Assembly: GCA_016218575.1 (NCBI GenBank)
Contig: JACRDN010000019.1
Span: 396,302 to 460,301, forward strand
DNA length: 64,000 bases
Direction of reading: 5' to 3'
From: Elusimicrobiota bacterium
GTDB lineage: Bacteria; Elusimicrobiota; Elusimicrobia; UBA1565; UBA9628
Below the pieces are notes generated by a model. That model was not told the DNA's origin. It saw only the letters and a list, made by a program, of their open reading frames with translations, and made no database searches. How positions within the stretch are numbered: the stretch's first letter is position 1; every line of letters begins with the position of its first letter. Of this stretch, positions 42,470 through 57,316 are shown piece after piece. The position numbers and the translations under genes are program-made.

Positions 42470-43158
42470 ATCAACAAATTCTGCGGATCATGCTGGTCGA
42501 GGACAATCCGGACGACGCCTGGGCGACGCGGGAGGCTCTGGCCGGCGATGGGGACCGCTTTGAAATCCAGCACCTGCGCAATCTTGGCGACGCGCTTGAG
42601 CGGCTGGAGGCCGGCCCCGTGGATGTGGTTCTCCTCGGCCTCGGCCTTCCGGACAGCCAGGGTTTCGATGCTATCGTCCGAGTCCGCGCACGTAGCCCCG
42701 GCACTCCGATCGTGCTCATGACCGGCGCGGACGACAAGGCCTTCGCCATCAGGGCGCTCCAGCATGGGGCCCAGGATTATGTGGTCAAGGGCGCTTACGA
42801 CGAGAAGCGCCTCCCGCGCATCGTGCTCTACGCGGTGGAGCGCAAACGCGCTGAAAACCTGGCTCGCTCCAGCGCGGACCGCGAGCGCTTCGCCCTGGTC
42901 GCCTCCCGCGACCTCCAGGAACCCCTGCATAAAATCATGGCTTACGGGAACATCCTCATGCATCAGCATGGAGAGGATATCGGTCTTCAGGGCCGCGACC
43001 TCCTCTCCCGCATGCTCCGCGCGACGGAGCGTATGGCGAAGTTGGTGTCGGAGATGCCGGAGCTCTCCCATCCCGCGCAAGCCGCGGGAGCCCCGCGTCT
43101 GGTGGACTTGAACGAAACCGTTTCACGGGTGCTTAGGGCTCGCAATGGAATAATATGA
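42466..43158 (+). CDS. Degenerate REC-HisKA protein lacking both phospho-acceptors
   Basis: 230 aa. The receiver fold is intact (RIMLVEDNPDDAWATREAL, LMTGADD, DYVVKGAYDEK), but the acceptor Asp is Gly (G58 in VVLLGLGLPDSQG). A HisKA-like helix follows with Arg instead of the phospho-His (VASRDLQEPLHKIMAYG, R148). The protein ends after HisKA with no ATPase domain. Its last codons (ARNGII) and stop lie in the left arm of the structured element at 43135-43406, suggesting the element truncated a former kinase. Could act as a dominant or dimerising partner, or be decaying. Confidence 0.8.
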   Translation: MNQQILRIMLVEDNPDDAWATREALAGDGDRFEIQHLRNLGDALERLEAGPVDVVLLGLGLPDSQGFDAIVRVRARSPGTPIVLMTGADDKAFAIRALQHGAQDYVVKGAYDEKRLPRIVLYAVERKRAENLARSSADRERFALVASRDLQEPLHKIMAYGNILMHQHGEDIGLQGRDLLSRMLRATERMAKLVSEMPELSHPAQAAGAPRLVDLNETVSRVLRARNGII

Positions 43159-43406
43159 CCAACTGGCCGGGGCAATTTTGGAGCGAGACGAGGATCGAGG
43201 AGCGAGCATACCCGCAGTGGTATGTGAGTGACGAGGGACGAAGTCGCAGCCCAAAAGTGCCCCGGCCCTCCGGGCAGGCCCATCTTCGGCCGATTTCTTC
43301 GTTGCTCGTTGGTCACAATGCGCTGCGGCATTGCTCCCTCCTCGCGCCTCGAAATCAACTCGAATCTGGGCCTGCCAGTTGGTCATATTATTCCATTGCG
43401 AGCCCT
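43135..43406. repeat. Structured inverted-repeat element, copy A
   Basis: Outer arms of 33 bp are perfectly inverted (43135-43167 and 43374-43406). Inside are two hairpin-bounded units in opposite orientation. Unit 1 is closed by a 17-bp stem with one mismatch (43165-43181 with 43251-43267). Unit 2 is closed by a 10-bp stem (43273-43282 with 43367-43376). Each unit contains GAGCGAG/CGAGGAG-type repeats and a small hairpin before GTGA: CATACC/GGTATG in unit 1, CAATGC/GCATTG in unit 2. Unit 2 read on the - strand matches unit 1 (CGAGGAGxGAGCA, CCGCAG, TGTGA, ACGA). The same layout recurs at 56998-57316 with different arms. Confidence 0.85.
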
Positions 43407-43423
43407 TATGGTAGGAGGACGCT

Positions 43424-56800: not shown

Positions 56801-57000
56801 CCCTGGGCCCGGGGGCCGAGACCCGCATTCCCATGGCCGTGGCCGTGATCGGAGGGGTGAGTCTTTCCACAGTTCTTACCTTGTTCGTGGTGCCCTGCGC
56901 CTACAGCCTGTTTTCGAGCCTGGAAAGCCACCGGCATGACCGGGATTTAAGGGAGGCCCAGCGCGAGATGGAGGATGTCGTGCTGCCCGGAGCGCTCTAG
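53866..57000 (+). CDS. RND-family efflux transporter (AcrB/MdtB type)
   Basis: 1044 aa from the GTG at 53866 (GTGA overlap). Marks: [51 protein letters not shown], TM2-3 block [49 protein letters not shown] with the proton-relay DD, [21 protein letters not shown], and in the second half [46 protein letters not shown]. HAE-1-like drug pump. No periplasmic adaptor (HlyD/AcrA) gene is adjacent. Its TAG stop is the first triplet of structured element B. Confidence 0.94.
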   Translation: [1044 protein letters not shown]

Positions 57001-57316
57001 CGCTCCCACCGGCTCATAATGCCCGCTTTGGCCGGCCGCTTTTGGAGCGAGCCGAGGCGCGCGAGCCGAGCATGCCTGAAAGGCCTGTGAGGCGAGCGCA
57101 ACGAAGGCGCAGGCCAAAAGCGGCCGGCCGCTCTTCTTAAGGAAATCGCTGACATCTTAATCGCAGACAGTTCCTCCATAGAGCGGGGGTCCGGCTTTGG
57201 CAGCCTGCGGCGTCGCTTGTCGGTCACATAGCTAGTGCTATGCTCCCTCCTCGCTCCTAGCATCCAGCTCAAAGCCGGACCCCCAAAGCGGGCATTATGA
57301 GCCGGTGGGAGCGCTA
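56998..57316. repeat. Structured inverted-repeat element, copy B
   Basis: Outer arms of 32 bp are perfectly inverted (56998-57029 and 57285-57316) and unrelated in sequence to copy A's arms. Unit 1 is closed by a perfect 16-bp stem (57030-57045 with 57114-57129). Unit 2, inverted, is closed by 14-16 bp (57185-57198 with 57271-57284). The apical hairpin of unit 2 is CATAGC/GCTATG (57227-57242), where copy A has CAATGC/GCATTG, both between GGTCA and CTCCCTCCTCGC: paired changes that keep the stem. Between the units lie 55 extra nt not present in A. The arms hold the acrB-like stop on one side and the last codons and stop of the glycosyltransferase on the other. Confidence 0.85.

Follow-up and report, generated by a model that had tools for sequence, protein, structure and literature searches.

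We conclude with good confidence that two inverted-repeat elements, here called A and B, are MITEs of one modular superfamily, in which terminal inverted repeats of about 32 bp, specific to each subfamily, enclose a conserved non-coding core of two hairpins; class 1 is most likely moved by ISAzo13 transposases and class 2 by another transposase. Both elements lie in a stretch of 64,000 nucleotides from an Elusimicrobiota bacterium, which was analysed as a whole (the window). Direct support comes from the copies, their common ends, the target duplications, the match to IS ends, the conserved paired core and the repeated switching of end types.

Element A (43136-43405, GGGCTCGCAATG...CATTGCGAGCCC) is a complete 270-bp class-1 MITE. 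It is bordered by the target duplication TTA on the left (43133-43135) and on the right (43406-43408). The left terminal inverted repeat (43136-43167, plus strand) is an ISAzo13-like end, in which TTA is followed by GGGCTCGCAATGGAATAA, and the right one occupies 43374-43405 on the minus strand. Between them are a type I hairpin unit on the plus strand (43166-43266) and a type II unit on the minus strand (43273-43376). Element B (57001-57313) has the same core but belongs to class 2, the CTAG type. Its terminal inverted repeats (57001-57031, plus strand, and 57283-57313, minus strand) surround a type I unit on the plus strand (57030-57129) and a type II unit on the minus strand (57185-57284). 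The CTAG target is found on the left (56997-57000), where the TAG is the stop codon of an RND transporter gene, and CTAT on the right (57314-57317) is an imperfect second copy of it. With these flanks and its CGCTCCCACC ends, B lacks the TWA duplication and the GG... ends of the ISAzo13 type.

The original prediction had placed A at 43135-43406 and B at 56998-57316, so that only small shifts of the borders were needed. The outer arms of 32-33 bp, perfect or nearly so, were found in both elements as described, and the anatomy with its hairpin, TGTGA block and compensated stems also stood. The two inverted units of about 100 nt per element are homologous across A and B, and all four were recovered by the covariance model R1. 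This model represents the type I unit and was trained on 33 rows, mostly from other genomes but with the type I unit of A itself among them. In a scan of the 64-kb window, R1 gave exactly four matches with E-values from 1.8e-21 to 6.5e-12 and none other up to E=10. The type I and type II units scored 116.1 bits (E 1.8e-21; the training row) and 69.3 bits (E 6.4e-12) in A, and 73.3 bits (E 9.7e-13) and 69.3 bits (E 6.5e-12) in B. Fold energies of the two elements are far below those of shuffled sequences (z -14.0 and -12.6), which is due to the long inverted arms. Beside A, the window encodes a response regulator-HisKA protein without a HATPase domain (42433-43158). When the flanks of A are joined, a stop appears at codon 248 and the domain is not restored; hence it was probably lacking already when A inserted.

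The genome of origin (2.82 Mb in 23 contigs, 97 % complete) contains further copies in abundance, and so do its relatives. DNA searches recovered six complete copies of A with 96-100 % identity including the arms, a further copy truncated where its contig ends, and many half copies, most of which lie at the ends of contigs. In this genome there are 23 matches to the pattern of A's terminal inverted repeat and none to its reversed control. For B, there is one copy with 90 % identity (contig C17:107984-108306), a shorter copy and a solo arm, the partial copies being on contigs C16 and C14. The core was also found with other arms, in subfamilies C (GGCCCTGTCAAG..), D (GGGGTCGCGTC..) and E (TGTAGTGTCCC..). 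The arms were originally thought to be specific to each locus. In fact they are common to all copies of a subfamily and differ between subfamilies, which identifies them as subfamily terminal inverted repeats.

The idea of a MITE-like mobile palindrome was borne out by these dispersed copies with common terminal inverted repeats, by target-site duplications and by the lack of a transposase gene inside elements that mostly measure 225-345 bp, within the 50-500 bp expected of MITEs. Both flanks are TTA or TAA in 68 class-1 copies, and the two triplets agree in 67 of them (39 TAA/TAA, 28 TTA/TTA, 1 mixed), while about half of the pairs would be mixed if the two triplets were independent. When the flanks of class-1 copies are joined, a palindromic target preference GNCCTWAGGNC appears. 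Class-2 copies (B, E and relatives) have CTAG flanks, some of them degenerate, and a third class of ends starts with CTGAGC after TA.

Copies in this and related genomes tend to lie close to genes, with 43 of 54 neighbouring gene 3′ ends at most 40 bp from the element; the stop codon often coincides with the TWA or CTAG that is duplicated. We considered strict targeting of stop codons and rejected it: gene 3′ ends are mostly near, but a frame test showed no more than a slight excess (49/44/37). We also noticed several rearranged copies. Three C-type copies of the own genome (L030:1441-1768, L032:1595-1919 and L034:1542-1866) carry nested double-hairpin insertions of 57-60 bp, situated either within a unit or in the central loop. 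At L032:1595-1919 the type II unit lies in inverted orientation between its own stem arms, as would result if these had recombined and flipped it. A palindrome of 48 bp made of two C arms, with the entire core absent, is present at L071:1590-1637 (contig C22 of the own genome), and solo arms were found at C14:133605 and C14:157829. A separate family of 40-bp palindromes (TTATCCACAAAAACTTCCCGGGAAGTTTTTGTGGATAA type) was seen at L039 (C16:44651-44897), L033:2462-2505 and L040:1674-1715, once inside a hairpin of a B-type copy.

We searched for the mobiliser of class-1 ends using a weight matrix made from 45 distinct class-1 MITE ends only, with which we scanned 255,374 positions of IS loci fetched via PF01609 and PF07592. 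The ISAzo13 family is represented by PF07592 and NF033519. The top 11 matches (24.1-27.4) were ends beside ISAzo13 transposase genes, compared with scores of 17.8-30.6 for the MITE ends themselves, and the best twelve (≥19.2 bits) were all in loci fetched by ISAzo13 genes. In loci fetched via PF01609, apart from one match of 18.9 (L203), no score exceeded 13.1. A clear case is L224, a 1,296-bp IS bounded by two matching ends that score 25.2 and 18.7, with an intact ISAzo13 transposase of 403 aa inside (NF033519 E 7.4e-169; weak IS630 similarity at 3.8e-9). Similarly, the MITE ends of genome G181 (GGAGCCGTTAAGAAATAA) and an ISAzo13 end of genome G234 (GGAGCCGTTACGAAATAA) have one difference in 18 positions. 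Class-1 ends thus match those of autonomous ISAzo13 IS, and since a profile trained on MITEs picks out the ends of these IS, ISAzo13 is the likely mobiliser in trans. Judging from this identity of ends, an ISAzo13-family DDE transposase would recognise TWA followed by GGnnYYGTnAnnAAATAA, cut the class-1 element and insert it elsewhere, duplicating the 3-bp TWA target. For class 1, we regard this route as well supported. CTAG-type copies such as B, in which the core is unchanged, would need another transposase.

ISAzo13-family IS carry the same terminal sequence at both ends as class-1 elements, but the MITEs have no transposase and their hairpin core is unrelated. None of the copies combining these ends with the core encloses a transposase, which argues that the core is no plain deletion derivative of known IS. 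No unit was found in ISAzo13 loci, and the core therefore does not derive from these IS. The transposase itself (PF07592) was not detected in the own genome, where the elements may now be stranded, or the IS may have been lost or left unassembled; a partner in the same genome is no strict requirement. PF07592 was detected in only 9 of 235 genomes of the class, and 6 of those 9 are outside the genomes with core matches. When autonomous elements were sought as pairs of terminal inverted repeats at longer spacing, every pair was MITE-sized, and no transposase was found for class-2 and class-3 ends. Two other candidates were rejected as mobilisers: PF13359 (PIF/Harbinger, DDE_Tnp_4) was found in 0 of 77 genomes, the own genome included, and PF01609 (DDE_Tnp_1) is absent from the own genome and its loci in relatives carry other ends. 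Accordingly, no IS5 or PIF/Harbinger transposase with matching ends could be paired with the TWA or CTAG targets.

Pairing in the core covaries strongly. Standard pairs are kept in 92.8 % of cases in type I and 92.8 % in type II units, and slid control structures were only 26-43 % paired. Cells with double changes numbered 116 in type I units (31 in shuffles) and 165 in type II units (40 in shuffles). This covariation means that the similarity of the units goes beyond chance GA-rich repeats, a possibility that had been raised with the original prediction. Read outward from the apical hairpin, the shaft begins with G.T, A.G and G.A, followed by two Watson-Crick pairs; next come A.G, G.A and one Watson-Crick pair, after these A.G, G.A and two Watson-Crick pairs, and the series continues in this manner. 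Covariation is seen at the Watson-Crick steps (step 4 C-G 71 and G-C 41; step 8 G-C 72 and C-G 28). Most G.A steps persist at 64-77 % in many genera, with two exceptions at 50 % and 31 %, and in some genomes an ordinary helix replaces the shaft (L135, L137, L138). In such contexts, DNA and RNA alike are known to accommodate tandem 5′-GA-3′ mismatches as stable sheared pairs. Internal motifs, GCAGCC for example, hardly vary. A coding core was considered as well. Open frames of at least 80 codons are present in 69 of 73 elements of 240-290 bp, while dinucleotide shuffles gave a mean of 33, yet the frame is not conserved; a conserved protein was rejected because element lengths take all values modulo 3 and several frames are open at once.

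One explanation for the maintenance of this pairing, which we regard as possible though well short of probable, is that these are ordinary MITEs whose core has no role, and that arms and stems stay paired only through template switching during replication, which copies one arm onto the other. Whole pairs indeed change together, the 116 double-change cells standing against about 11 one-sided ones, and the arms of A copies occur in G/G, G/A and A/A states. The mispairs in the stems point the same way, with 31 G.T and 26 A.C (9 and 0 in a small control of nine tRNAs from the same loci), although these counts share descent and are not independent. However, correction by template switching would convert the G.A steps of the shaft into Watson-Crick pairs, and most of them persist, nor would it explain the near invariance of the internal motifs. 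We infer that pairing is kept by selection, by template-switch correction or by both, and that the core may help its own spread. Our tentative suggestion, doubtful as it still is, is that the core could be a selfish DNA structure of two strand-specific hairpins, in whose shaft Watson-Crick pairs alternate with tandem sheared G.A pairs. A host or transposase factor would recognise this structure in single-stranded form, and it would have spread class-wide by exchanging ends among unrelated IS families.

That the MITEs carry a structured RNA, such as a riboswitch, ribozyme or processing signal, is rather unlikely. The strong covariation and the conserved internal loops would suit an RNA, and transcription is expected from the position at gene ends. 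This part of the original prediction was nevertheless not supported, as no Rfam match was obtained even at E-values up to 1, and each transcript would hold one sense and one antisense unit. G-U makes up only 1.2-1.8 % of standard pairs and is barely commoner than A.C, so that the bias typical of RNA is missing; similar frequencies of G.T and A.C fit pairing as DNA rather than RNA.

The nearest known idea had been the REPIN, which a RAYT transposase mobilises; that such a Y1 enzyme moves the present elements as single-stranded hairpins we now consider very improbable. Like REPINs and BIMEs, the elements are inverted pairs of related hairpin units with non-canonical pairs, and RAYT genes (PF01797) are present in 57 of 77 relatives, with two such genes in the own genome. 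On the other hand, the units of the elements are far larger than those of REPINs and BIMEs, their terminal repeats are long and their targets are duplicated, and no link to RAYT emerged: five genomes with elements (G004, G022, G038, G056 and G062) have no RAYT match, and none of twelve RAYT loci contains a unit. The RAYT locus L088 of genome G013 has inverted arms of 27 bp with GGGGACTGTCCCC palindromes beside the RAYT gene, which are probably its own REP-type repeats. Finally, the suggestion that at every site an inverted arm is made by copying the flanking DNA, for which the differing yet near-perfect arms of A and B had spoken, is refuted by identical arms in copies at unrelated sites, whose flanks show a short duplication only.

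Exchange of ends within the superfamily is seen in a tree of 103 cores. This was a quick tree with many weak forks, in which no fewer than 11 changes of end class took place; if only branches supported at 95 or above are counted, a minimum of 5 changes is needed for class 1, of 4 for class 2 and of 3 for class 3. For example, the class-2 copy at L138 groups among the class-1 cores of its own genome. The core is thus a module that was repackaged again and again with other ends. Most copies have ends that match the ISAzo13 family, and the core is common to all. As for the route, our guess is that the inner arm, which is shared in part, allowed ends to be exchanged through recombination or template switching.

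DNA matches to the elements were found in 31 of 77 genomes, the own genome included. Matches to the unit model extend to at least 69 of 235 genomes of the class and at least 37 of 64 genera, which are lower bounds, as filters were strict and no more than 17 candidates were scored per genome. The distribution within genera is patchy. Pattern scans of viral contigs gave no match.

Like the bacterial MITEs RUP, Correia/NEMIS, Nezha and QMITE (PMC10969869, PMC3733652), the elements are short and non-coding, have terminal inverted repeats and short target duplications, lie near genes and would be mobilised in trans; unlike them, they share one covarying core class-wide, joined to at least three types of ends. 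ISAzo13 is not mentioned in a 2024 review of prokaryotic MITEs (PMC10969869), and the one paper found to name ISAzo13 together with miniature inverted elements does not tie it to MITEs. We found no link between ISAzo13 and MITEs in the literature searched, which is weak evidence of absence as subscription papers were thinly covered. MITEs are usually viewed as decayed insertion sequences whose interior is irrelevant. Here, the interior is conserved over 37 genera and the ends are exchanged between transposon types, in a large radiation of MITEs linked to ISAzo13. This MITE superfamily is real and spans the class, its core is conserved and unusual, and its ends can be exchanged; with it, one can test whether selection may act on a non-coding DNA structure as the parasitic unit itself.
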